NCBI RefSeq assembly: GCF_000001735.4
Contig: NC_003075.7
Span: 7,999,001-8,063,000, forward strand
Length of the DNA: 64,000 nucleotides
Direction: 5' to 3'
Source of the DNA: Arabidopsis thaliana
Lineage: Eukaryota; Streptophyta; Magnoliopsida; Brassicales; Brassicaceae
In this document: positions 3,129 to 42,320 of the stretch, one piece after another
How the letters are laid out: every line of letters starts with the position of its first letter
Numbering within the stretch: position 1 is the first letter of the stretch
Made by a program: the position numbers and the translations under genes
Notes under the pieces: model-generated
Databases searched by the model: none
Seen by the model: only the letters and a program-made list of their open reading frames with translations
Told to the model about the DNA's origin: nothing

Positions 3129-4858
3129 TTATAGTATTGCAGGTCTAGTGGAATTGGAGCTGCGACTGGAACCTGAGTTTATGAAGACAGGAGTGTCTCT
3201 AGGCGAGTGTGATGTGGAGCCGCGTAAGCTGGTACTGTTTCCCATGTCTTTTGTCTTGTGGAGAAGAAAAGTTCCTGACAAAATGGTCACAAAGCCACAT
3301 AGCTCGGTAGCAATTTGCAATCCACTTTGAGAAGCCCAATCCTAGACGATAAACAAATAATGATGCTATGCTTATAAATTAATTGGAACCTTTTAGTTTA
3401 TGATCACTTCTCAAAAACTGCATTTTACCTTGAACATGATCATACTAGCTAAGATGGTGAATGTTGTAAACATAACATAGTACACTGGAGATATGACTGC
3501 TGTGTTGAAATTATCCAGAGCCTCCAAAGATGAAAACAGGATTTGTTAGTCGGAAAAAATTGAAATGTGACAATCAACCAATATTTGTTATTACCTTGTT
3601 CAAGTAGTTGATTTGCAAAATGCAACATATGGTCACTACTATGATGAAGATCCATGCGTGGAAGTACTTGAATTGGTTCATCCCGGAAAAAGTCAGCTTT
3701 ATGGCGATCGCCACAGCTTTAACACTCATAACCTAACACGCAAGAGATACTGAGACACTTACTTAAGCAAGTAGAGATATATACTAAGGGATGGCTAAAG
3801 AAAAAGATGAAAACATACTGTAAGAGAGCCCATTAGAGAGCAAATCCCAACATATACTATCATATGCGTCTTCCCATAACGCGGCTCATAGTAAAAGATC
3901 AATGCAAGCACCACAACCAAGACCACAGCAGAATATGCAAGGAAACCTTGTTAAAACATTCAAGCAATAGAGTATGTTTCAGTCCAATAAGAATCTTACT
4001 TTTTGTCAAAAACATTTATTGTTCTATACCTGGTTCGGTAGCAAGGTGCCATACTTGCTTGACGGATTCAATGCCTTGCTCGTGAGGAGCATGTAAAACA
4101 ATCGTTGTAGATCCAACAACACAGAGGACACAACCAAGTATACCAAACATATGCAACTTCTCTTCCAAAATAAAATGTGCTAGCACTGCGCTGCATAACA
4201 CGGTTTTCGTTTTCAGGAAACTACGTTAACGCAGACACAACGGAAAGAGATAGGCATAGTGGATACAGATACCTGAAAATAATACTTAAAGCTCCCAAAG
4301 GTGTTACTAGAATAGCCGGTGCAAATGCATATGCTGCAAAATTGGCTATCTCCCCAACAATCACTATAAGAATTAGTATGAATACAATATTAGTTATCAT
4401 AACCAAAGTTTGATGTCCATTGATTAAATCCAATAGAAACTTGGATTCCAAAACATGTCCCAAGCACACAAAACAGCAAAGTCATATCATCTCTAGCTAG
4501 ATAACAAACATTTAAAAAGTGATTTGCAGCAGAATTTCCCAAAACCATTATAGAGGATATTGATCAGACTTACTTGTTATCATTCCAGCCCACCACCAAG
4601 GTTCATATAAGTATCCATATCCTCCTTCACCTGATCACAGATAAATAACAAGTAGAAGCAAAATCAGTAAAAAAATATGTGATTTTGAAGAGCAAGAGAC
4701 TAAGTTATAGCTCAATGAAACAGAGAACCTGCTCTGGCGCCGCTAACACCGGCCTTCTTAAGACCTTTTTTCTTGATGATGAAGCTAGAACCGATGAATA
4801 TACTCGAAGACACAGCTAAAATGACTCCATGTATATTATCAGGTGACATCTCCTCCAT
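3129..4858 (-). CDS. NIPA-type magnesium transporter (DUF803 family)
   Basis: Eight exons on the minus strand: 4729-4858, 4574-4630, 4273-4363, 4030-4190, 3819-3946, 3595-3732, 3429-3521 and 3129-3341. All junctions are GT-AG and the frame is continuous, giving 336 aa. The first exon starts MEEMSPDNIHGVILAVSS, and the membrane core includes SFIIKKKGLKKAG, VGEIANFAAYAFAPA and LVTPLGALSIIFSAVLAHF, all typical of NIPA proteins with about nine membrane helices. The polar Ser/Thr-rich C-terminal tail is cytosolic by inference. NIPA proteins move Mg2+ in animals; plant members are annotated by homology. Its leader and promoter were copied to 39.2-40.0 kb and its 3' end to about 44.6 kb. Locus recalled as AT4G13800. 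Confidence 0.9.
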
Positions 4859-6061
4859 CTTTGCTAATATTTATAGTCTTGCTTATATACAAGTTAAGAT
4901 AATTTCAGGTTACTAATGACGAAAATTTCCAGAAAGTTTAGGCTGAAGATAGCTTATTGCGTCTACAAAAAAAAAAAACACAAACAAATAAGAATCGGAC
5001 AAAATGTCCATTTTCTAATCAAAAAATCAACATAAAACACATAAGTACTATTTAATTTTAGCAATTGCCTCACCAATCATGTTCTGAAAACAAAAAAAAT
5101 CTGAGTTTTCAAAAAATTCTTTGTGGCAGAAAATTCGATAACCAGACAAATGGCGCACAAGTAGATTACACCGAGACAGGGAGATAGAAGCAAAGGAAAA
5201 CGACAAATCTTAACATATAAACAAACAATGTCACAAGAAACAGCTGCGACTATACAAAATCTAGGATCTTTCGAATTGTTTCTCAAAAGATTAACGAATC
5301 AAAAGAAAAAAAATTAAGACCCACAAAAAATTTCACTTTTTATACGTTACCTTGTCCACAATAATAAAATCAAATCACCAGTAAATGAAACAAAATCAAA
5401 AAGAAGAAAATATCTGGAAGCTAGAGAAGTAGCAATAGAATATTCGAATCGTATCAAACCTTTTTCATCTCTTCCATTTTTGTACACCAAAAAAAAATCA
5501 AGAAATGTAGAAGACGTAATAAATGATTTTTTTCCGTTTTTTTTTCTTGGTGATGAAACGTAATGTGAAATTGATTTAGGGTTCTTTGTTGTGATGATGG
5601 AACTGAATCTGAAAAAAAAATGAAAGCAAAGAAGAGAAGAGGACAGAGAGATACAGTAGTATTGTAACGAAATTATAGGAAACTAATAGAACTAACTCGA
5701 ATGCATAACACACTTATAATACAACTCAAAACATTAGAGTTACACATATACACAAACATTTAAATTTAGACCGTTTCGGTTCTACTTTATTGGTTTCTTT
5801 TTTTTTTGTTCATAAAATTAATCCTCTGTAATACAACAATCCTCTGTAACCACTTCTAATTCTTAATCAAAGTTTCATGCTATAACTATTATACAGTTTT
5901 TGTTTCTACATATAAAACGTTGCAGACCAAATTCCTTACGACGATATTAGAACATTAATTTAAAAGGACAAGGAGATATTTTATCTTTCAAATAAGTGTA
6001 AGAATGTAGATTGATAATATGATTTTCAAACAAGTCTTGAGAAAGTTTATTGAATGCTTAC
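4859..6061 (-). promoter_or_regulatory. NIPA 5' leader with intron, promoter, and RLP47 3' flank
   Basis: A likely non-coding first exon of the NIPA gene ends at 5351 with a donor reading GGACAAG|GTAACG on the minus strand, so an intron probably separates it from the coding start at 4858. I could not fix the acceptor. The block 5278-6061 occurs again, inverted, at 39246-40021, which includes the same donor. The end nearest 6061 is the 3' flank of RLP47. Confidence 0.5.
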
Positions 6062-8464
6062 TTAAGTAAAGAAGGAAACAATTCTCATGAACCAGTCACG
6101 TTTGTGTGAAACCAGAATGTGGCCGATGGTGAGTCCACACACAACACCAGGTACGTAGCCTATTGCAGCTGCTATCCAGCTAAATACTTGATCTTCCTCT
6201 TCCTTGTCTTCATCTTGTTCTTGCTTTGTTGCTTCTTCTTCTCCACCACATTTTTTTAGGAGAGGAGCACCGCAAAGCCCGGGATTCTCTGTGAAAGAAG
6301 AACTATCTTGGGTTTGAATCTGAGTGGTTTCTGGTATTGGACCTTCAAGCCTGTTGTGCGAGAAGTTCATCCACTCTAGAAACGTGAGTTTTCCGAGCTC
6401 TCCTGGGATACTGCCGGATAATCTGTTTTGAGAAAGATCCAATGATTGGAGATTGCTCAAGTTTGATAGAGATGGTGGAATATGGCCTGTGAAAGCGTTG
6501 TTTGACATGCTGAGCACAATCACTTCTTTGAGAAGACCGATGGACTCGGGGATGTCTCCTTCGAGTCTGTTTCCCGAGACATCGATGGTTTTGTAGATTG
6601 TGAAACCACTCCCAACCAGCTCCATCTTTAATCCTTTGTTTATGAGAGCTACAGACTTATGGTAGAAGTCCCGGTCAATTCCTGTAACTGTATACTGAAT
6701 TATTCTACCATCAATGTCCACGACTGATGACATTACACTCCAACCAACAAAGTAATCTGACGGCAAAACTCCAGTGAAGCGATTTTCCGAAATATCAAAG
6801 ATTCGCAACCTGGAGAAACTTAAAGAATCTCCAGGAGAAAATATTGGCCCATAGAACTCGTTAGAACGAAGGACAAGAATCTGAAGATTGGGCAACAATT
6901 CCAACCAGGATGGAAACGTGTCATTGATTCTGTTATCTTCCACGTTTAGAAACTCGATATCACTGCAGTTGATCAATGATTTGGGAAGTTCTCCTGAGAA
7001 AAGATTGTGACCAACATCAAATGATTGCAAGTGATGACTGATAGCTTCCTCTGGAAAAATACCAGAGAGGTTGTTATTCCGAAGGTGCAAGACATAAAGA
7101 TGTAAATTCTCAAAACACCGAGGAATAGAACCGCTGAAGTTGTTGTTTGACAAAACAAGTATCCGAAGATTATCCAATTCGCATATTGTTTTAGGAATCT
7201 CTCCCGAGAATCGATTATTGGAGCTGAACAAGTAATTCATAGAGACTACTGGTAACAAAGGAAATGGATCCTGGAATATGTTTGAACTTATGTCAAGCAC
7301 AAGTAATTCTCGACCTCCTTGAATAACATCTGCTGGTCCTTCGAAACCATTGAAAGAATTATGAGAAATGTTAACATACCGCAACTCTGGCAGACTCCAT
7401 AACCACTCCGGTACTTGGCCTTCAATTTGATTGGCAGAGATGTCTAAATACTCCAAACTGGTTTGGTTACGTAGAAATTTGGGAAACTCGGAAATATTGC
7501 ACGACAATAGACCCAAGTATTCTATGGGTGAGGGAAGACTGACGGTTGAACTGATCTTCAAATTAATCCCTGAAACATCCAAATAACCAAGTGACAAGAG
7601 AGGTGAGAAAATACTCAAATCAACAATGTCCGGATTGAAATTGTTTCTTCCAATGTTTAATAGTTGAAGATTAGATGGTGAAGAGATATTCCCAATCTCA
7701 AAAGGACCGCTGAAGTCGTTTCTTCCCAGGTGAAGTAGAATCAACGAAGGGATCATGAAGAGAGAAGAGGGAATGGTTCCAGAAAATGAATTTCCACTAA
7801 TATCAAAAGCCTCCAGTTTGGAGAGGCTACTCATGTTAGATGGGAGCATACCTTTCAACTGGTTATCACCAAGGTCGATCCAGGTGACCGAGCTCAACTT
7901 GAGAAGCATATCGGTTAGTCGGTTAAGGTTCCCCATTGAATCTGGTCCTTCACTGGTGAAATCATTATAGGAAAGATCAAGATGAGTGAGATAAGAAAGA
8001 TTTCCGAGTGAAGAAGGAATCTTTCCAAAAAGATTGCAATTAACAAGAACCAAAACCTTCAAACGTTTGAGATTGCCTATGGAATCCGGTAGAATACCCG
8101 AAAGATGATTGCTGCCAAGAACTAGCTTCTGAAGATGTTGTAGTCTAAACAGGCTACTATTAGATCTCAAAGGACCATTGAGATGACTATACTGGAGGTC
8201 TAACTCAACCACCACTCCCGTCTTGGGATCACAAGAGACACCATCCCAGGAACAGCAATCAGTGTTGTTCCTCCACTTCTCAGTCATCGCATATGAATGG
8301 GGGCTTGGGACATTGAACTCGTTCTTGAACCCCCAAAGAGAATCCTTCTGGTCTGGAAGACACAAGTGTTTAGCACTAACAAGTATTGAGTTTGTAAGGC
8401 AGAAGATTAAACACAAGCTCCATTTTACTGTTATCATCCTCCTCACACTAGAAGAATGCATCAT
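6062..8464 (-). CDS. RLP47: Receptor-like protein, intact (RLP47)
   Basis: Intron-free, 800 aa from the ATG at 8464. I chose this start because paralogues RLP48 and RLP49 begin at the matching place; the frame is open 16 codons further upstream. Parts in order: signal peptide ([14 protein letters not shown] core), N-terminal cap with [12 protein letters not shown], a long array of plant-type LRRs (LxxNxLSGxIP), an island near the last third, more LRRs, C-terminal cap NPGLCGAPL, an acidic stretch rich in Glu, one membrane helix ([16 protein letters not shown]) and a short tail [14 protein letters not shown]. There is no kinase domain. RLPs act at the plasma membrane with SOBIR1/BAK1-type kinases to sense ligands (family knowledge); the ligand is unknown. 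It has fewer N-terminal LRRs than RLP50. Confidence 0.88.
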   Translation of the reverse strand: MMHSSSVRRMITVKWSLCLIFCLTNSILVSAKHLCLPDQKDSLWGFKNEFNVPSPHSYAMTEKWRNNTDCCSWDGVSCDPKTGVVVELDLQYSHLNGPLRSNSSLFRLQHLQKLVLGSNHLSGILPDSIGNLKRLKVLVLVNCNLFGKIPSSLGNLSYLTHLDLSYNDFTSEGPDSMGNLNRLTDMLLKLSSVTWIDLGDNQLKGMLPSNMSSLSKLEAFDISGNSFSGTIPSSLFMIPSLILLHLGRNDFSGPFEIGNISSPSNLQLLNIGRNNFNPDIVDLSIFSPLLSLGYLDVSGINLKISSTVSLPSPIEYLGLLSCNISEFPKFLRNQTSLEYLDISANQIEGQVPEWLWSLPELRYVNISHNSFNGFEGPADVIQGGRELLVLDISSNIFQDPFPLLPVVSMNYLFSSNNRFSGEIPKTICELDNLRILVLSNNNFSGSIPRCFENLHLYVLHLRNNNLSGIFPEEAISHHLQSFDVGHNLFSGELPKSLINCSDIEFLNVEDNRINDTFPSWLELLPNLQILVLRSNEFYGPIFSPGDSLSFSRLRIFDISENRFTGVLPSDYFVGWSVMSSVVDIDGRIIQYTVTGIDRDFYHKSVALINKGLKMELVGSGFTIYKTIDVSGNRLEGDIPESIGLLKEVIVLSMSNNAFTGHIPPSLSNLSNLQSLDLSQNRLSGSIPGELGKLTFLEWMNFSHNRLEGPIPETTQIQTQDSSSFTENPGLCGAPLLKKCGGEEEATKQEQDEDKEEEDQVFSWIAAAIGYVPGVVCGLTIGHILVSHKRDWFMRIVSFFT

Positions 8465-9130: not shown

Positions 9131-9538
9131 TTAAGCAAAATACTGAAAGCTTTTCATGAACCAGTCACGTTTATACGAAGTGAGAATGTGACCAATGGTG
9201 AGTCCACACACAACACCAGGTACGTAGCCTATTGCAGCTGCGATCCAGCTCAATACTTGATCTTTTTCTTCATCTTGCTCTTGCTTTGTTGCTTCTTTTT
9301 CTTCTTCTTCTTCTCCCCCGCAAGTTTCTTGGAGAGGAACACCGCAGAGCCCGAGATTCTCTGCGAATGAAGAACTATTCTGGCTTTGAATCTGAGTGCC
9401 TTGTGGAATTGGACCTTCAAGCATGTTGTAGGAGAAGTTCATTTGTGCTAGAAACGTGAGTTTCCCGAGCTCTGGTGGGATTTCACCGGATAATCTGTTT
9501 TTAGAAAGATCCAATGATTCGAGATCAGTCAAATTCAA
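9131..9538 (-). pseudogene. Detached C-terminal part of the neighbouring RLP
   Basis: This frame encodes the usual RLP ending: final LRR (SLDLSKNRLSGEIPPELG), cap LGLCGVPLQETCGG, a Glu-rich stretch, the membrane helix [16 protein letters not shown] and the tail YKRDWFMKSFQYF. It is out of frame with the 719-aa reading frame upstream. Compared with the paralogues, 28 bases are missing at the junction, where they have [12 protein letters not shown]. It cannot be translated as part of the upstream protein without a frame change. Confidence 0.8.
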
Positions 9539-11694
9539 CCGTTGTTTGACATATTGAGCACAATCAGTTCTTTAAGTAAACCGATTGACTCGGGAATACG
9601 TCCTTCGAATCTGTTTCCGGAGACATCGATGGTTTTGTAAATCGTGAAAACACTCCCAACCAACTCTATTATCGATCCTTTGACCGTCATAGTCACTGAG
9701 TTATAATAGTTTCCTGAGTCACGTCCAGCATACCTACTCGGCATAATATCTACGATGTCTACGGCTGATGACATTGCACTCCAACCCGCAAAGAAATCTG
9801 ATCGAAGGACTCCATTGAAGCGGTTTTCCGAAATGTCAAAGATTCGCAGCTTGGGGAAGCTCAAAGAATCTCCAAGAGAAGATATTGGACCATGAAACTC
9901 GTTAGAACGAAGGACAAAAATCTGAAGTTTGGGCAACATTCTCAACCAGAATGGAAACTTGTCATTGATTATGTTGTCTTCCACGTTCAGAAACTCGAGA
10001 CGAGTGCAGTTGATCAAAGACTTGGGAAGTTCTCCTGATAACCGGTTGCGACCAACGTCAAGTGATCTCAAGTGATCACTGATAGATTCCTCTGGAAACT
10101 CACCGGATAAGTTGTTATTCCGAAGATGCAAAACCGAAAGAGTAGTATTAAACTTCTCGAAACACCGAGGAATGGAGCCGTTGAAGTTGTTGTTGGATAA
10201 AACAAGTGTATCAAGAGAAACCAATTTGCATATAGTCTTAGGAATCTCTCCCGAAAACCGATTATCAGAGCCTAAAAAGATCGTTGTCGAGTTTGGTAAC
10301 AAAGGAAACGGATCTTGGAATGTGTTTGAACTTATGTCAAGCATAAGTAATTCTCCACATCTTTGAATAACATCTGCTGGTCCTTCAAAGCCACTGAAAG
10401 AATTTTGAGAAATGTTAACATACTGCAACTCCGGTAGACTCCACAACCATTGTGGTACTTGGCCTCCAATTTTATTGGCAGAGATGTCTAAATAATACAA
10501 AGTGGTTTGGTTTTCTAGAAAATTGGGGAACTCAGGAATATTGCAAGATGATAAAATCAAGGTGCCCATGGGTGAGGGAAGACTTAGAGTTGAACTGATC
10601 TTCAAATTAATCCCGGAAAGATCCAAATAACCAAGTGACAAGAGAGGTGAGAATATACTTATGTCAACCATGCTTCTTGTATTAATATAAGAGAGGTCAA
10701 GGAACGTAAGTGACTTGAGATGCAAGAAAGTGTTGAAATCGACCATGCCTCTCTTTGTGTTCCATAAAGAGAGGTCAAGATAAAAGAGACCAACTAGTTT
10801 CGATATAGACTCCGGGATTGGCCCATTGAAATTGTTTTCTAGAAGGGACAAAACTCCAAGATTAGATGGTGAAGAGATATTACCAAAGTCAAGAGGACCG
10901 TTGAAGTCGTTTCTTCCCAAAACAAGAGAGGTCAATGAAGGTAGCATGAAGAGAGACGATGGGATAGATCCGGAAAATGAATTTCTATCAATCCCAAAAT
11001 ACACCAATTTAGAGAGGCTACTCATATTAGATGGGAGCATACCTCCGAACTGGTTAGAACCAAGGTCGATCAACGTAAGCTCGCTCAAATTGAGTAGCAT
11101 ACTAGGAAAGTTCCCACTGAGCTTGGCCGATCCAAGATGCAACTCTGTTAGCTTGTTTAAATGTCCCATCGAATCCGGTAGCTCCCCGGTGAAATCATTA
11201 ACAGAAAGATCAAGATTAGTGAGATAAGTAAGATTTCCAAGTGAAGAAGGAATCTTTCCAAAGAGATTACAATCACCAAGACTCAAAACCCTCAAATATT
11301 TGAGGCTGCCTATGGAATCCGGTAGAATACCCGAAAAATTATTCGAGCCAAGATCCAGATTATGAAGATGTTGTAGTCTAAACAAGCTACTATCATATCT
11401 CAAAGGACCATTAAGAAAACTGTTCATGAGGTCTAACTCTACCACCTTACCCGTTTTAGGATCACAAGAGATACCATCCCAAGAACAGCAATCGGTGTTG
11501 TTCCTCCACTTCTCTGTCTTCTTAACACCAACAATCCCATTGGAGTTGAACTCATGGACATAAAACTCGTTCTTAAACTCCAAAAGAGCATTCTTCTGGT
11601 CTTGACGACATAAGTGCTTAACATGAGAAGCCAAAACCAGTTTTGAATTAGAAAGGGACAAGATTAAACACAAGCTCCATATTGTCATCTTCAT
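9535..11694 (-). CDS. LRR protein, RLP lacking membrane anchor (719 aa)
   Basis: Intron-free. Starts MKMTIWSLCLILSLSNSKL (signal peptide), then the cap with DCCSWDGISCDP and a long LRR array including an island. It stops after [11 protein letters not shown], just where the paralogues continue [11 protein letters not shown] 28-base deletion relative to the paralogues shifts the frame, so the last LRRs, acidic stretch, membrane helix and tail are left in another frame (9131-9538). If translated, the product would be a secreted or apoplastic LRR protein. It could be a pseudogene or a soluble decoy; the long open frame otherwise looks well kept. Adjacent, same-strand paralogue of RLP47, probably by tandem duplication. 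Recalled as AT4G13820, whose annotated length is about this. Confidence 0.85.
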   Translation of the reverse strand: MKMTIWSLCLILSLSNSKLVLASHVKHLCRQDQKNALLEFKNEFYVHEFNSNGIVGVKKTEKWRNNTDCCSWDGISCDPKTGKVVELDLMNSFLNGPLRYDSSLFRLQHLHNLDLGSNNFSGILPDSIGSLKYLRVLSLGDCNLFGKIPSSLGNLTYLTNLDLSVNDFTGELPDSMGHLNKLTELHLGSAKLSGNFPSMLLNLSELTLIDLGSNQFGGMLPSNMSSLSKLVYFGIDRNSFSGSIPSSLFMLPSLTSLVLGRNDFNGPLDFGNISSPSNLGVLSLLENNFNGPIPESISKLVGLFYLDLSLWNTKRGMVDFNTFLHLKSLTFLDLSYINTRSMVDISIFSPLLSLGYLDLSGINLKISSTLSLPSPMGTLILSSCNIPEFPNFLENQTTLYYLDISANKIGGQVPQWLWSLPELQYVNISQNSFSGFEGPADVIQRCGELLMLDISSNTFQDPFPLLPNSTTIFLGSDNRFSGEIPKTICKLVSLDTLVLSNNNFNGSIPRCFEKFNTTLSVLHLRNNNLSGEFPEESISDHLRSLDVGRNRLSGELPKSLINCTRLEFLNVEDNIINDKFPFWLRMLPKLQIFVLRSNEFHGPISSLGDSLSFPKLRIFDISENRFNGVLRSDFFAGWSAMSSAVDIVDIMPSRYAGRDSGNYYNSVTMTVKGSIIELVGSVFTIYKTIDVSGNRFEGRIPESIGLLKELIVLNMSNNG

Positions 11695-12517
11695 CTGACC
11701 TCAACAATGCAATAAACTTTTTTTCTTTGATTTTTTTTTTCTCAGAAAGTGAAATGAATGATGTTCAATGTTTATAAGTGATGGCTCTAGTAATAGACCC
11801 AAAGACTGTCTTACATTTTGTGGAAAAAAGAAAAAGCTTGACTTAACAAGTCTCTTGTAAAAAAAATGGCGTCATCTTCCACAAAGATATATGAATTTCC
11901 AAATGAACGCTCCACAAAGTCAATTATGTCTCCTCTTGCATAAAAGTATTAACCCTAAAAATAATTCAATTACTTGCGGTGTGGGGTTACCGCAGTACAA
12001 AAAGTAGAGCGTGTGGGGTTACCTCAGCTGTGTGGTGAGTGCTACGCAATTGCGCAAACGCTCTTTAACGGGGCACGCTCGTGACTCGTGAGAGAGTCAG
12101 TCACACACCGTAAAAGTTACCGATAAACTCTCAAAAAGTCTTTTTTGGCTTTGCCAAATTTCTAAAATTCAATCAACATTTTCTTTCTTCTTTTCGTTTA
12201 CATTTTTGTATTAAAAAAAAAACTCTAATGGGCTCGTGGAGGTAGCTGAAGCCCAAAATATGGGATAAGGGCTATAAGGATTGTCGATCATATCTTCTTG
12301 CGCCGTCAAAAAGCTTCCAGTCGCAAACGATGACAACTTTCCATTAAACTAAAATGACATAAATACCCTTCAAAATCCACATATTACTCTCAACTGTTTC
12401 ATCTACCTCCCTCCCTCTCTCCCCATTCCCAAACTACACATTACACATTACCAATTCTCATATTAAAATCCACAAAACTCAAATCCCCAAAATAAACAAA
12501 CCCTAAAATTCAAAACA
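11695..12517. promoter_or_regulatory. Divergent intergenic region: LRR gene and J20 promoters
   Basis: About 820 bases between two divergent genes. A TTGACT core lies at 11838-11843 and reads AAGTCAAGCTTT in the LRR gene orientation, as in the RLP49 and RLP50 promoters. Two similar pieces around 11975 and 12010 share GTGTGGGGTTACC. The J20 side has a pyrimidine-rich leader (CTCCCTCCCTCTCTCC near 12408) and an AAACCCTAAA telo-box-like motif close to the start codon. Confidence 0.5.
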
Positions 12518-26542: not shown

Positions 26543-27150
26543 TTCTTTTACTGAAACAAAAAAATAAAAATTAATGCTTTGGACGAGTCTCGTCGGCCCC
26601 TTTAAATGTTTGTATTGTTTGTTTTTAATTTTAAACGTTCCCACACTGTACAATATAGTTGTGTGTTTTAAATTGCCCGAGACACGCTTTATACAATTTT
26701 TGTATGATTTTGATTATTCATCACGTAACCATAACCTTTGCTTCACATTAGAATTGTCCCATGTTAGGGATATTGGCATAACGATGTATCAGATCATGTC
26801 GATGAGAAACCAAATTCAATCTTTCAGAAACTTAAACCCATCCCATACAAACAACCACACTTTTGTTGACAAATGGAGCAACCAATTCCTCTTATTTTCA
26901 TTCAACAGTAGACACTCTTTCATTTTCAACAAAAAAACACTCCTTTGACTAAGTAGAAACTGTCGATGGCCACACGCGAAAAATGATGATGAATTCTTAT
27001 AACACTCCTCCACAGATGTAGTAAGTGTCATCCAAGGATCTAGCAATTAAGAGTCAGATATTCAATTTTCTGTGGAAGCAATTATCCTTCCCAGGAGACT
27101 TGTCAAGTCAAGCAACGATCAATTCGTTTCACAGAAGAAATAAAACAAGG
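26543..27150. promoter_or_regulatory. Divergent region between WEX and RLP48; RLP48 promoter box
   Basis: The left part is the WEX promoter; a piece near 26810-26860 recurs near 48715-48760, upstream of the WEX relic. The right part is the RLP48 promoter: ATTTTCTGTGGAAGC at 27065-27079, then AGTCAA (W-box core, reverse orientation) at 27106-27111. The same pair with the same 26-base gap occurs before RLP49 and RLP50. Confidence 0.55.
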
Positions 27151-29614
27151 ATGCATTCTTGTAGTGAGAGGAGGATGATGACAGTAATATGGAGCTTGTG
27201 TTTAATCTTCTGCCTCTCTAACTCAATACTTGCCATTGCTAAAGACTTGTGTCTTCCCGACCAGAGGGATGCTCTTTTAGAGTTCAAAAACGAGTTCTAC
27301 GTCCAAGAGTTCGATCCCCATATGAAGTGTGAAAAGGCAACAGAGACGTGGAGGAACAAGACTGATTGCTGTTCTTGGAATCGTGTCTCTTGTGATCCTA
27401 AGACAGGCAAGGTCGTCGAGTTAGATCTCATGAGCAGTTGTCTCAATGGCCCTTTGAGATCTAATAGTAGCCTGTTTAGACTACAACATCTCCAGAGCTT
27501 AGAACTTAGCTCCAATAATATTTCCGGTATCCTACCAGATTCCATCGGCAACCTCAAATATTTGAGGTCTTTAAGTTTTCGTACTTGCCATCTCTTTGGA
27601 AAGATTCCATCTTCACTCGGAAGTCTTTCTTATCTCACTCATCTTGATCTTTCTTATAACGATTTCACCAGTGAAGGACCAGATTCGGGTGGCAACCTAA
27701 ACCGACTTACAGATTTGCAACTTGTGCTACTCAACTTGAGCTCGGTCACCTGGATCGACCTTGGTTCTAACCAGTTGAAAGGTATGCTCCCATCTAACAT
27801 GAGTAGCCTCTCCAAACTGGTGTCTTTTGATATTAGTGAAAATTCATTTTCTGGATCCATTCCCTCTTCTCTCTTCATGATCCCTTCGTTGAGTACTTGA
27901 CTTGCGAAGAAAAGACTTCAGCGGTCCTCTTGAGATTGGGAATATCTCTTCACATTCCGAACTTGGATACTTGTACATGGGAGAAAACAATTTCAATGGA
28001 CCAATTCCGGGATCTTTATCAAAACTAGTCGGGCTCAGGGATCTTAGCCTCTCTTTCTGGAACACAGGAAGGGGCATTGTTGATTTCAGCATCTTCTTGC
28101 ATCTCAAGTCACTTTGTTCACTTGACCTCTCCTATCTGAATACAAGAAGCATGGTTGATTTGAGTTTTTTTTCACATCTCATGTCACTTGATGAGCTGGA
28201 TCTTTCAGGGATTAATTTGAAGATCAGTTCAACTCTCAGCTTTCCCTCAGCCACGGGCACCTTGATTTTAGCATCCTGCAATATTGTTGAGTTCCCCAAG
28301 TTTCTAGAAAACCAAACCAGTTTGTTTTATCTAGACATCTCTGCAAATCACATTGAAGGCCAAGTACCGGAGTGGTTGTGGAGACTGCCAACGTTGTCGT
28401 TTGTAAACATTGCTCAGAATTCCTTCAGTGGAGAACTACCTATGTTACCAAACTCTATCTATAGCTTTATAGCCTCTGATAATCAGTTTTCGGGAGAGAT
28501 TCCTAGAACAGTATGCGAATTGGTTAGTCTTAATACACTTGTTTTATCTAACAACAAATTCAGCGGTTCTATTCCCCGGTGTTTTGAGAATTTCAAAACT
28601 ATTTCAATCTTGCATCTTCGGAATAACAGCCTCTCGGGTGTTTTTCCAAAGGAAATTATCAGTGAAACCTTGACATCACTTGATGTTGGTCACAATTGGC
28701 TATCAGGACAACTTCCCAAGTCTCTGATCAAATGCACTGACCTCGAGTTTCTGAACGTGGAAGATAACAGAATCAATGACAAATTTCCATTTTGGTTGAG
28801 ATCGTTGTCCAATCTACAGATTCTTGTCCTTCGTTCTAATGAGTTCTATGGGCCAATATTTTCTCTTGAAGATTCTTTGAGTTTCCCCAAGTTGCGAATC
28901 TTTGATATTTCGGAAAATCACTTCACTGGAGTCTTGCCATCAGATTACTTTGCAGGTTGGAGTGCAATGTCATCAGTCGTAGACATTTTTGATACTACGC
29001 CTCAGGTTCACATTTTAGGAGTTTTCCAGGGATACTATCATAACTCTGTGGTTCTGACGAACAAAGGATTAAATATGGAGCTGGTTGGGAGTGGTTTCAC
29101 AATCTACAAAACCATTGATGTCTCCGGAAACAGACTCGAAGGAGATATTCCAGAATCGATTGGTATACTCAAGGAACTGATTGTGCTCAACATGTCAAAC
29201 AACGCTTTCACAGGCCATATTCCACCATCTCTATCAAACTTGAGCAATCTCCAATCATTGGATCTATCTCAAAACAGATTATCCGGCAGTATCCCGCCAG
29301 AGCTCGGGAAACTTACGTTTCTGGAGTGGATGAACTTCTCGTACAACAGGCTTGAAGGTCCAATACCACAAGCCACTCAGATTCAAAGCCAGAATAGTTC
29401 TTCTTTCGCAGAGAATCCCGGGCTTTGCGGTGCTCCTTTCCTAAACAAATGTGGTGGAGAAGAAGAAGAAGAAGAAGAAGCAACAAAGCAAGAAGAAGAT
29501 GAAGATGAAGAAAAGGAAGAGAAAAATCAAGTATTTAGCTGGATAGCAGCTGCAATAGGATATGTACCTGGTGTGTTCTGTGGACTCACCATCGCCCACA
29601 TTCTCACTTCATAG
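27151..29614 (+). CDS. RLP48: Receptor-like protein RLP48, frameshifted and tail-truncated
   Basis: RLP gene with signal peptide ([16 protein letters not shown]), cap DCCSWNRVSCDP, LRRs, island, cap [15 protein letters not shown], Glu-rich stretch and membrane helix [16 protein letters not shown]. The frame opened at 27151 ends at 27900 after [13 protein letters not shown]; the rest (from about 27893) is open in the +1 frame to 29614. Paralogues have six bases between TCGTTG and CTTGAC where this copy has four, so a 2-base deletion explains the shift. The protein also stops right after the membrane helix (HILTS), without the usual RDWFMRI tail. A gene model could bypass the shift with an intron, but I see no need for one in this intron-free family. 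Probably a pseudogene, or expressed only as an N-terminal LRR fragment. Recalled as AT4G13880. Confidence 0.8.
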
Positions 29615-36710: not shown

Positions 36711-39245
36711 ATGATGTATTCTTGTAGAGAGAGGAGGATGATAACAGTAAAATGGAGCTTGTGTTTAATCTTCTGCCTTTCAAACTCAATACTTGTTTTT
36801 GCTAAACACTTGTGTCTTCCAGACCAGAGGGATTCTCTTTGGGGGTTCAAGAACGAATTCCATGTCCCAAGCGAGAAGTGGAGGAACAACACTGATTGCT
36901 GTTCTTGGGATGGTGTTTCTTGTGATCCTAAGACGGGCAATGTCGTTGGGTTAGATCTAGCGGGCAGTGATCTCAATGGCCCTTTGAGATCTAATAGCAG
37001 CCTGTTTAGACTACAACATCTTCAGAAGCTGTATCTTGGTTGTAATACTTCATTCGGAAGTCTTTCTTATAATGATGGTTTGAAGGGTGGTGAGCTACTG
37101 GATTCCATCGGCAACCTCAAATATTTGAAGGTTTTGAGTCTTCGTGGTTGCAATCTCTTTGGAAAGATTCCTTCTTCACTCGGAAATCTTTCTTATCTCA
37201 CTCATCTTGATCTTTCTTTTAATGATTTCACCGGTGTGATACCAGATTCGATGGGCAATCTCAACTATTTGAGGGTTTTGAATCTTGGTAAATGCAATTT
37301 CTATGGAAAGGTTCCTTCTTCACTCGGAAATCTTTCTTATCTCGCTCAACTTGATCTTTCCTATAATGATTTCACCCGTGAAGGACCAGATTCAATGGGG
37401 AACCTTAACCGACTAACCGATATGCTTCTCAAGTTGAACTCGCTCACCGATATCGACCTTGGTTCTAACCAGTTGAAAGGTATGCTCCCATCTAACATGA
37501 GTAGCCTCTCCAAACTGGAGTATTTTTATATTGGTGGAAATTCATTTTCTGGATCCATTCCCTCTTCTCTCTTCATGATCCCTTCGTTGGTTGAACTTGA
37601 CCTGCAAAGAAACCACTTCAGCGCTCTTGAGATTGGGAATATCTCTTCACAATCTAAACTTCAAGTATTAATTCTTGGAGGAAATAATTTCAATCCGGAC
37701 ATTGTTGATTTGAGTATTTTCTCACCTCTCTTGTCACTTGGTTATTTGGATGTTTCAGGGATTAATTTGAAGATCAGTTCACCCGTCAGTCTTCCCTCAC
37801 CCATAGAATACTTGGTTTTATCGTCGTGTAATATTTCCGAGTTTCCCAAATTTCTACGTAACCAAACCAAGTTGTATTCTTTAGACATCTCTGCCAATCA
37901 AATTGAAGGCCAAGTACCGGAGTGGTTATGGAGTCTGCCAGAGTTGCAGTCTATTAACATCTCTCATAATTCTTTCAATGGTTTCGAAGGACCAGCAGAT
38001 GTTATTCAAGGAGGTGGAGAACTATATATGCTTGACATAAGTTCAAACATATTCCAGGATCCATTTCCTTTGTTACCAGTAGACTCTATGAATTTCTTGT
38101 TCAGCTCCAATAATCGATTTTCGGGAGAGATTCCTAAAACAATATGCGAATTGGATAATCTTGTGATGCTTGTTTTGTCAAACAACAACTTCAGCGGTTC
38201 TATTCCTCGGTGTTTTGAGAATTTACATCTTTATGTCTTGCATCTTCGGAATAACAACCTCTCTGGTATTTTTCCAGAGGAAGCTATCAGTGATCGCTTG
38301 CAATCACTTGATGTTGGTCACAATCTTTTCTCAGGAGAACTTCCCAAATCATTGATCAACTGCAGTGCACTCGAGTTTCTATACGTGGAAGATAACCGAA
38401 TCAGTGACACGTTTCCATCCTGGTTGGAATTGTTGCCCAATTTTCAGATTCTTGTCCTTCGTTCTAACGAGTTCTATGGGCCAATATTTTCTCCTGGAGA
38501 TTCTTTGAGTTTCCCCAGGTTGCGAATCTTTGATATTTCGGAAAATCGCTTCACTGGAGTCTTGCCATCAGATTACTTTGCGCCTTGGAGTGCAATGTCG
38601 TCAGTCGTGGATAGAATAATTCAGCATTTTTTCCAGGGATACTATCATAACTCTGTGGTTCTGACGAACAAAGGATTAAATATGGAGCTGGTTGGGAGTG
38701 GTTTCACAATCTACAAAACCATTGATGTCTCCGGAAACAGACTCGAAGGAGACATCCCCGAGTCCATCAGTCTTCTCAAGGAACTGATTGTGCTCAACAT
38801 GTCAAACAACGCTTTCACAGGCCATATTCCACCATCTCTATCAAACTTGAGCAATCTCCAATCATTGGATCTATCTCAAAACAGATTATCCGGCAGTATC
38901 CCAGGAGAGCTCGGGGAACTCACATTTCTAGCGCGGATGAACTTCTCTTACAACAGGCTTGAAGGTCCAATACCACAAACCACTCAGATTCAAACCCAGG
39001 ATAGTTCTTCTTTCACAGAGAATCCTGGACTCTGTGGTCTTCCTCTAAAAAAAAACTGCGGCGGAAAAGAAGAAGCAACAAAGCAAGAGCAAGATGAGGA
39101 AAAGGAAGAAGAAGAACAAGTATTTAGCTGGATCGCAGCTGCAATAGGCTACGTACCTGGTGTTGTGTGTGGACTCACCATCGGCCACATTCTGGTTTCA
39201 CACAAACGTGACTGGTTCATGAGAATTGTTTCCCTCTTTACTTAA
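36711..39245 (+). CDS. RLP49: Receptor-like protein, intact (RLP49-type)
   Basis: Intron-free, 844 aa. Signal peptide ([16 protein letters not shown]), cap [12 protein letters not shown], a long LRR array with one or two more repeats than RLP47 in the N-terminal part ([20 protein letters not shown]), an island around [14 protein letters not shown], more LRRs, cap [15 protein letters not shown], Glu-rich stretch, helix [16 protein letters not shown] and tail [14 protein letters not shown]. The whole frame is open. The C-terminal end and 3' flank match RLP47, while the island matches RLP48 and the relic downstream, so the gene looks like a conversion mosaic. The symbol is inferred from order (AT4G13900 region); reference annotations may treat that locus differently. 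Confidence 0.82.
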
Positions 39246-40021
39246 GTAAGCATTCAATAAACTTTCTCAAGACTTGTTTGAAAATCATATTATCAATCTA
39301 CATTCTACACTTATTTGAAAGATAAAATATCTCCTTGTCCTTTTAAATTAATGTTCTAATATCGTCGTAACGAATTTGGTCTGCAACGTTTTATATGTAG
39401 AAACAAAAACTGTATAATAGTTATAGCATGAAACTTTGATTAAGAATTAGTAGTGGTTACAGAGGATTGTTGTATTACAGAGGATTAATTTTATGAACAA
39501 AACAAAAAGAAACCAATACAGTAGAACCGAAACGGTCTAAATTTAAATGTTTGTGTATATGTGTAACTCTAATGTTTTGAGTTGTATTATAAGTGTGTTA
39601 TGCATTCGAGTTAGTTCTATTAGTTTCCTATAATTTCGTTACAATACTACTGTATCTCTCTGTCCTCTTCTCTTCTTTGCTTTCATTTTTTTTTCAGATT
39701 CAGTTCCATCATCACAACAAAGAACCCTAAATCAATTTCACATTACGTTTCATCACCAAGAAAAAAAAACGGAAAAAAATCATTTATTACGTCTTCTACA
39801 TTTCTTGATTTTGTTTTGGTGTACAAAAATGGAAGAGATGAAAAAGGTTTGATACGATTCGAATATTCTATTGCTACTTCTCTAGCTTCCAGATATTTTC
39901 TTCTTTTTGATTTTGTTTCATTTACTGGTGATTTGATTTTATTATTGTGGACAAGGTAACGTATAAAAAGTGAAATTTTTGTGGGTCTTTTTCTTTTGAT
40001 TCGCTAATCTTTTGAGAAACA
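39246..40021. repeat. Inverted copy of 5278-6061 (RLP47 3' flank and NIPA leader)
   Basis: This block is the reverse complement of 5278-6061, with small indels. It starts as the 3' flank of RLP49, runs through the NIPA promoter area (CATTCGAGTTAGTTCTATTA), the leader (TTCCATCATCACAACAAAGA) and the leader splice donor GGACAAG|GTAACG at 39955/39956, and stops in the leader intron. The junction with the RLP relic shows a 4-base overlap, AACA, at 40018-40021. The copied promoter points toward the relic. Confidence 0.88.
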
Positions 40022-42320
40022 TGAGTAGCCTTTCCAAACTGGAGGCTTTTGATATAGATGGAAATTCATTTTCTGGAACTATTCCCTCTTCTCTCTTCAT
40101 GATCCCTTCGTTGGACAGACTTAACCTGGGAAGAAACCACTTCAGCGGTCCACTTGAGATTGGGAATATATCTTCACAATCTAATCTTCAAATTTTATAC
40201 ATTGGAGAAAACAATTTCGATGGACCAATCCCAAGATCTATATCGAAGCTAGTCGGGCTCTCAGAACTTAGCCTTTCTTTCTGGAACACAAGGAGGAGCA
40301 TCGTTGATTTCAGCATCTTCTTGCATCTCAAGTCACTAGAGTCACTTGACCTCTCCTATCTGAATACAAGAAGCATGGTTGAGTTCAGTCTTTTCTCACC
40401 TCTCATGTCACTTGGTTATTTGGATCTTTCGGGGATTAGTTTGAAGTTCAGTTCAACTCTCCATCTTCCCTCCTCACTCATAGAATACTTGATTTTAACG
40501 TCCTGCAATATTTCCGAGTTTCCCACGTTTCTACAAAACCAAACCAGTTTGGAGTATTTAGACATCTCTGCCAATCAAATTGAAGGCCAGGTACCAGAGT
40601 GGTTATGGAGACTACCAGAGTTGGGGTTTGTAAACATTTCTCAGAATTTCTTCAGTGGAGAAGTACCTATGTTACCAAAGTCTATCATTCATTTTATAGG
40701 CTCTGATAATCAGTTTTCAGGAGAGATTCCTAGAGCAATATGCGAATTGGATAGTCTTGATATACTTGTTTTATCCAACAACAACTTCAGCGGTTCTATT
40801 CCAAGGTGTTTTGGGAATTTACCACTTTCTGTCTTGCATCTTTGGAATAACAGCCTCTCTGGTATATTTCCAGAGGAATCTATCAGTGCTAGCTTAAGAT
40901 CACTTGATGTTGGTCACAATTGGCTATTGTGGATGTCGGATTCGGCCCATTTCGGCCCAATCCGCATTCAATGGGCTTCGAGGTGAATTGGGCCCAATTC
41001 ATAGCCCAGCGTAAGCTTGGCCGTTTAAAGAACGATCCGACATTAATACAGAAACGGAAGGATCACGACTTAAACAGCGCATTAAAGTCCCGAGTTGAAG
41101 ATTCGTAACGAACGACATTAATAACGCGAGATCCGCGGCGTGAAGTCAGCGAGTAATTTAATACGTTTGATCCGATGTATTGAGTATAAATACGAGTCGA
41201 TGACATTTGTAAAGGGGACGAAAAAGAATACACTAATACTATACACAAAATTCAAAAACACTCATTCCTCTTTTCGATTCGATCATTGTTTGTTTAACAA
41301 GACTAAAGATCCCCGTAAAAACAACCACAAGATTCTAATTGCGGATTCCGACATCCACAGCTATCAGGACAACTTCCCAAGTCTCTGATCAAATGCACTG
41401 ACCTCGAGTTTCTGAACGTGGAAGATAACAGAATCAATGACAAATTTCCATTTTGGTTGAGATCGTTGTCCAATCTACAGATTCTTGTCCTTCGTTCTAA
41501 TGAGTTCTATGGGCCAATATTTTCTCCTGGAGATTCTTTGAGTTTCCCCAAGTTGCGAATCTTTGATATTTCGGAAAATCGCTTCACTGGAGTCTTGCCA
41601 TCAGATTACTTTGTTGGTTGGAGTGCAATGTTATCGGTCGTAAGCATTTATGATAGTACACGTGGGTATGCGGTTCTAGGAGCTATCCGAGAAGCCTACC
41701 ATAAATCTGTGGTTCTGACGAACAAAGGATTAAATATGGAGCTGGTTGGGAGTGGTTTCACAATCTACAAAACCATTGATGTCTCCGGAAACAGACTCGA
41801 AGGAGATATTCCAGAATCGATTGGTATACTCAAGGAACTGATTGTGCTCAACATGTCAAACAACGCTTTCACAGGCCATATTCCACCATCTCTATCAAAC
41901 TTGAGCAATCTCCAATCATTGGATCTATCTCAAAACAGATTATCCGGCAGTATCCCAGGAGAGCTCGGGGAACTCACATTTCTAGCGCGGATGAACTTCT
42001 CTTACAACAGGCTTGAAGGTCCAATACCACAAACCACTCAGATTCAAACCCAGGATAGTTCTTCATTTACAGGGAATCCCAGTCTATGTGGTGCTCCTCT
42101 CGAAGAACCCTGCGGCCGAGAAGAAGATGAAGAAGCAACGAAGCAAGAACAAGATGAAGACAAGGAAGAGGAAGATCAAGTATTTAGCTGGATAGCAGCT
42201 GAAATAGGCTATGTACCTGGTTTGTTTTGTGGACTCGCCATCGGCCACATTCTCACTTCATATAAACTTGACTGGTTCATGAGAATCTTTTCCTGCTTTT
42301 CTTCTCCGCTGATAAAATGA
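40021..42320 (+). pseudogene. Headless RLP gene, interrupted by a solo LTR
   Basis: RLP sequence lies in two blocks, 40021-40927 and 41365-42320, on either side of an LTR. The first block starts in the middle of an N-terminal LRR ([19 protein letters not shown]), so the signal peptide, cap and first repeats are missing, replaced by the inverted NIPA-leader block. The second holds the later LRRs, island ([13 protein letters not shown]), cap NPSLCGAPLEEPCG, Glu-rich stretch, membrane helix and tail [15 protein letters not shown]. Each block is open throughout, so both events are recent relative to gene decay. Any protein from the first block would be a cytosolic LRR fragment. Confidence 0.85.
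40928..41359. mobile_element. Solo LTR of an LTR retrotransposon, 5-bp target duplication
   Basis: A 432-bp element begins TGTGGATGTCGGATTC and ends GATTCCGACATCCACA, so it has TG...CA ends within a longer inverted terminus. It is flanked by the direct repeat GCTAT at 40923-40927 and 41360-41364. It contains a TATAAATA-like promoter near 41185 and carries no internal coding region, as expected for a solo LTR left by LTR-LTR recombination. Copia or Gypsy membership is not settled. Sharp ends, a perfect target duplication and an uneroded host frame on both sides suggest a young insertion. Confidence 0.88.

Follow-up and report, generated by a model that had tools for sequence, protein, structure and literature searches.

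An inverted copy of a NIPA promoter and leader joined to a headless receptor-like protein gene in the RLP47-50 region of Arabidopsis thaliana

The window analysed here is a stretch of 64,000 nucleotides of Arabidopsis thaliana DNA (contig NC_003075.7, positions 7,999,001 to 8,063,000, forward strand), and the features that bear on the rearrangement described below, which is situated at about 8.038 Mb of Chr4, are listed in Table 1. Near the left end lies a NIPA gene, which we take from its position to be At4g13800, and whose spliced product matches Pfam family PF05653 with an E-value of 5.4e-150. AT4G13800 is labelled 'Magnesium transporter NIPA' in the literature found. Transcription of this gene probably starts near position 5680, judging by a TATAA at 5718, and the stop codon of the receptor-like protein (RLP) gene RLP47 is situated a few hundred bases upstream of that start. 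As the two genes share a strand and RLP47 immediately precedes NIPA, the 3′ flank of RLP47 is the NIPA promoter. The names RLP47 to RLP50 are our assignments by gene order; RLP48 is split over two frames (27025-27900 and 27893-29614) and may be frameshifted, and a second minus-strand RLP at 9131-11700, presumably At4g13820 by its order, is likewise split (11700-9535 and 9571-9131). Both RLP47 and RLP49 contain an LRRNT_2 domain in a Pfam scan, which for RLP47 covered the residues from 8458 onwards, and LRRs were also found in RLP49. At4g13900 is RLP49 according to PMC4892725, where it is cited as a pseudogene in TAIR10, although the frame is open over 844 codons in this sequence.

Table 1. Coordinates of the donor, copied and receiving features within the window
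Feature	Position	Strand	Remarks
NIPA gene	3129..5680	-	CDS from ATG 4858 to stop 3129; 336-aa spliced protein
NIPA non-coding exon 1 and leader intron	exon 1 ends 5351; intron from 5350	-	
Donor segment	5278..6061	-	RLP47-NIPA intergenic region, promoter, exon 1, start of leader intron
RLP47	6062..8464	-	open 800-codon RLP frame
RLP49	36711..39245	+	RLP frame open over 844 codons; related to RLP47, inverted
Young copied tract (proposed)	39135..40017	+	last 37 RLP codons including stop, 3′ flank, promoter, exon 1, intron start
Copied TATA box	39585..39593	+	TATTATAAG; from alignment
Copied uORF	39829..39852	+	MEEMKKV, 7 codons, in leader; context AAAAATGGA
Copied splice donor	39957..39962	+	GTAACG; parted from the NIPA acceptor
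Microhomology at joint	40018..40021	+	AACA; donor, paralogue and joint sequences compared
Headless RLP body, first part	40018..40927	+	
ORF from internal Met	40021..40986	+	321 aa; the RLP contributes about 302 codons and the LTR about 19 up to the stop
Solo LTR	40928..41359	+	432 bp, Ty3/gypsy type; ends TGTGGATG..CATCCACA; GCTAT duplicated on both sides
Headless RLP body, second part	41365..42320	+	C-terminal hydrophobic stretch and stop

The segment 39246-40017, immediately downstream of RLP49, repeats 6061-5278 in inverted orientation (98.1% identity over 781 positions by blastn), and the alignment confirms the description in the first-pass annotation of a duplicate of 5278-6061 that includes the promoter, exon 1, the splice donor and the start of the leader intron; both promoter and leader thus come from an identifiable donor gene. 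The homology was said to begin at 39246, which is incorrect, since it extends back through RLP49, with 37240-40021 matching 8091-5277 on opposite strands (93.6% over 2815 positions by blastn). In the copy the TATA box, a pyrimidine patch and exon 1 are all intact, and from TATA box to donor (39586-39956) 370 of the 371 bases equal those of the NIPA gene, the sole difference being at 39813. The copied 3′ flank (39246-39585) has 336 matches, four mismatches and one gap relative to its donor; the copy-specific substitutions are at 39371, 39451, 39503, 39519 and 39813, and there are indels as well. Changes are scarcest between the promoter and exon 1 (1/371, as against 4/340 in the 3′ flank), which could hint at constraint, but the difference is not significant (Fisher p 0.20). 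The splice donor had been placed at 39956, which is correctly the end of the exon, the GT itself occupying 39957-39958; a crude screen for cryptic acceptors, based on T content, retained four candidate AG dinucleotides within the RLP body, at 40439, 40655, 40699 and 40713.

A motif scan of the 711-base promoter-exon stretch found no ACGTG, RCCGAC or TTGACY in either donor or copy, and one CCGAAA and two GAAATT, on the minus strand, in both. When the genome itself was searched with 39200-41000, with the best candidates scored and simple repeats skipped, those candidates placed the NIPA-derived part at these two sites and at no other. We note that the leader uORF, which is identical at 39829-39852 and 5477-5454, opens like the NIPA protein itself (MEEMSPDN), and this likeness may perhaps go back to a first exon that was duplicated long ago or used alternatively. 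A 111-codon frame is also open across the leader in both copies (39624-39959 and 5682-5347).

The copy is followed by an RLP body that had been described as lacking its signal peptide and cap, and it does lack both: the Pfam scan finds no LRRNT_2 in the ORF at 40021-40983, and the N-terminal hydrophobicity of that ORF is 0.57, compared with 1.77-1.81 in the comparison. The LRR array itself is present, LRR_1 and LRR_8 being matched in both parts of the body. With the LTR removed the body forms an uninterrupted frame of 620 codons up to its stop, so that the LTR is the only break past the joint, and the end of the first part at 40927, given earlier as the end of the span, is the base just before the LTR and not a natural end, since the RLP resumes beyond the LTR. 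The promoter copy does point into this frame, as had been claimed, and an ATG at 40021 does open an ORF of 321 codons; the position of this ATG was given correctly, and it is a conserved internal methionine of RLPs, present in all five paralogues in the window. The part of the fusion contributed by the second gene is therefore in the same orientation and has a usable frame, albeit one cut by the LTR. No strongly hydrophobic stretch was found in the 321-aa ORF, and a membrane anchor is absent from the frame, which stops at 40986 while the hydrophobic C-terminal stretch lies past the LTR. From the missing head and the LTR insertion we regard the headless RLP as a pseudogene, although one whose decay is little advanced.

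At the joint the NIPA side reads GAGAAACA and then ATTC, the RLP side is TCTAACATGAG in four of five paralogues and TCTAATATGAG in the fifth, and the joint itself reads GAGAAACATGAG. The bases AACA are thus common to NIPA (GAGAAACA), the paralogues (TCTAACATGAG) and the joint (GAGAAACATGAG), and all three agree with the four-base overlap proposed earlier. The available texts on AtRLP47-50, NIPA, chimeric genes, break repair and promoter capture do not describe this joint, no literature match was found that joins At4g13800 with At4g13810 or RLP47, and At4g13910 is not named in the texts found for At4g13900/RLP49.

RLP49 groups with RLP47 as its sister in the two body segments (SH-aLRT/bootstrap 99.5/100 and 100/100) and in the tail (95.4/92). 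The signal-peptide segment of RLP49 (36711-36897) also groups with RLP47 (92.7/92); in the head segment (36898-37274), where the tree is unresolved, the two are not grouped. The 5′ flank of RLP49 has longer matches to the flanks of RLP50 and RLP48 than to that of RLP47, for which the query was 645 bases, its length being limited by the next gene. Because this flank is RLP50/RLP48-like, the left end of the copied block would be inside or near the RLP. The idea that RLP49 carries the head which the headless RLP lost finds no clean support, its first segment being RLP47-like, its second unresolved and its flank like those of RLP50 and RLP48.

The identity between RLP49 and RLP47 changes abruptly at 39135, from 92.7% on the left (136 differences in 1860 sites) to 98.6% on the right (12 in 882). 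The log-likelihood gain for this change point is 25.9, with a maximum of 6.6 among 300 permutations, and the boundary lies within 39111-39167 (two log-likelihood units). The body of the two genes has a synonymous divergence (Ks) of 0.10 and a nonsynonymous divergence of 0.07, whereas the flank differs at 11/771 sites (1.4%; Fisher p 1.9e-10 against the synonymous sites of the body), and a single RLP47 event followed by clock-like divergence is thereby rejected. Part of the divergence of the body is gene conversion: at 51 of the 136 differences in 37275-39139 both alleles are present in other paralogues, compared with 9.7% when point mutations were simulated. The remaining differences, found in RLP47 or RLP49 alone, amount to 83/1865 sites (4.5%). 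Five of the 11 flank differences (39981-39987) adjoin an indel and look misaligned, leaving 6/766. With a substitution rate of 7e-9 per site per year the tract would be 1.0 My old from 11/771 and about 0.56 My old from 6/766, and we place it at about 0.6-1.0 My; as the tract is young, accessions may differ at this locus.

These observations are, we think, probably best explained as a by-product of receptor-gene turnover, in which a promoter was joined to a beheaded RLP in the wake of copying linked to RLP47. RLP49 would have arisen as an inverted duplicate of RLP47, and because the RLP47 stop lies so close to the putative NIPA transcription start, copying of the RLP47 3′ end would have carried with it the intergenic promoter, exon 1 and the 5′ end of the intron. 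The four-base microhomology would then have let the copied strand join a neighbouring RLP in its middle, depriving that gene of its promoter, signal peptide and cap, and the beheaded gene would have been split again by the solo LTR. The earlier claim of promoter capture is thus right in that a promoter copy stands before a headless RLP, but what it took for a capture is likely to be an outcome of the RLP47/RLP49 inverted duplication. Repair of plant DNA breaks can proceed by a one-sided homologous invasion that is completed by end joining, and the young tract has a corresponding form, with one boundary in RLP coding homology and the other at a four-base microhomology, although here it is read from a fossil junction rather than from an observed event. 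We infer the mechanism and the order of events from these boundaries, and somewhat favour a later ectopic repair tract, starting near 39135 within RLP homology, over one event of 3 kb.

A single event, in which the RLP47 body, its 3′ flank and the NIPA leader were copied together and the coding part later diverged by conversion, is tenable at a lower level of belief. It accommodates the excess of differences with both alleles in other paralogues, and conversion would act only where paralogues exist, the flank being without donors; however, it would need unsampled donors for the private differences, given a Ks of 0.10 in the body and the few changes in the flank. A younger tract is preferred to one event because those private differences persist. 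That the joint is an error of assembly is barely credible: two copies that are 98% alike are a known trap, but this copy has substitutions and indels of its own and its joint shows ordinary microhomology.

Transcription may plausibly start from the copied promoter. If this promoter fires, the chimeric RNA would consist of exon 1 with the uORF, the orphan donor and then the 321-codon ORF running into the LTR, and such an RNA, if made, would probably be poorly translated or degraded. A true capture, in which a stable chimeric mRNA from the copied NIPA promoter is translated from the ATG at 40021 into an LRR fragment with a function in the cytosol, is very improbable. The near-perfect preservation from TATA box to donor speaks for it, as do the A at position -3 of this ATG, which opens the LRR frame, and the stress induction of NIPA in arrays (PMC4416716); against it are the upstream uORF, the LTR that cuts the frame, and an ORF that has no LRRNT_2 and does not start like a signal peptide. 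A secreted-type LRR fragment is unlikely to fold in the cytosol, and a useful or functional cytosolic protein from this ORF is unlikely.

RNA that crosses the joint, should it be found, might instead be read-through from RLP49 or a mis-mapped read, which we regard as rather unlikely, if much less so than a true capture. RLP49 is upstream of the joint on the same strand, rearranged gene pairs show an excess of chimeric read-through RNAs (PMC6545605), and EASTR flags annotated introns of RLP49 as spurious (PMC10632439); on the other hand, the copied RLP47 3′ flank between RLP49 and the joint may terminate transcription. Since copy and NIPA gene differ at a single base between TATA box and donor, reads could be assigned to the wrong one, and short reads cannot settle promoter use.

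In arrays NIPA shows fold changes of 12.1 for osmotic stress, 3.2 for salt, 2.5 for Botrytis (B. cinerea) and 2.4 for heat (PMC4416716), and given the roughly 12-fold osmotic induction, a promoter captured from this gene would respond to stress. The log2 values for RLP49 are 3.7 for osmotic stress, 3.2 for salt, 2.4 for B. cinerea, 2.6 for cold, 3.8 for genotoxic and 1.9 for oxidative stress, 4.7 for UV-B and 2.4 for P. infestans, and RLP49 is not among the five listed for heat (PMC4892725). A joint stress response was considered as proof of promoter use and discarded: the size of the osmotic response agrees, those to salt and B. cinerea do not, and many RLPs respond. It is conceivable, if only just, that an active NIPA promoter copy gives the headless RLP an osmotic-inducible RNA that adds to the published 'RLP49' induction and has a regulatory or decoy product, perhaps as a presence/absence variant among accessions. 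At4g13900 is among the genes of a co-expression study of CBP60g/SARD1 (PMC3511238), and a transcript atlas (PMC8290556) gives no transcript information for RLP49.

The event is an ordinary chimeric duplication within a receptor cluster, although its junction can be read with unusual clarity. Chimeric gene duplicates have likewise been described in which a 5′ flank, first exon and partial intron are joined to another gene (2012 review, PMC3449122), but the receiver here is a truncated, LTR-split pseudogene with at most a putative product. The AtRLP47-50 cluster treated in PMC4892725 is the same locus with the same genes, and the joint is not described in the text available. Read-through chimeras of Arabidopsis similarly involve a duplicated pseudogene downstream of a gene on the same strand, but they arise from failure of termination, whereas here a promoter was copied (PMC6545605); no gene beginning AT4G13 appears in the main text of that study. 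We note that this is a young and clean case of a non-immune promoter moved into an immune-receptor-like cluster merely as the 3′ neighbour of a duplicating receptor, that it shows how a single repair joint is able to behead a receptor, and that care is needed in assigning array probes or short RNA reads to RLP49.

The solo LTR is assigned to a Ty3/gypsy element on the basis of its TG..CA ends, its target duplication and a related LTR pair. This pair, which lies on C1 and is among the nearest relatives in the genome, is 90-91% identical to the solo LTR, its members being 98.8% identical to each other, and it flanks reverse transcriptase, RNase H and integrase in Ty3/gypsy order; three of the four scanned frames were Pfam-positive, and the fourth, a putative gag/protease, had no Pfam match. 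By its length and ends the solo LTR is presumably Tat1-like. The tat1 family is counted among the gypsy-like families (PMC545599). The LTR carries TATAAATA at 41185, facing the second half of the RLP, and a second promoter capture at this locus is possible; the first long ATG frame in that half begins at 41628 and has 230 codons.
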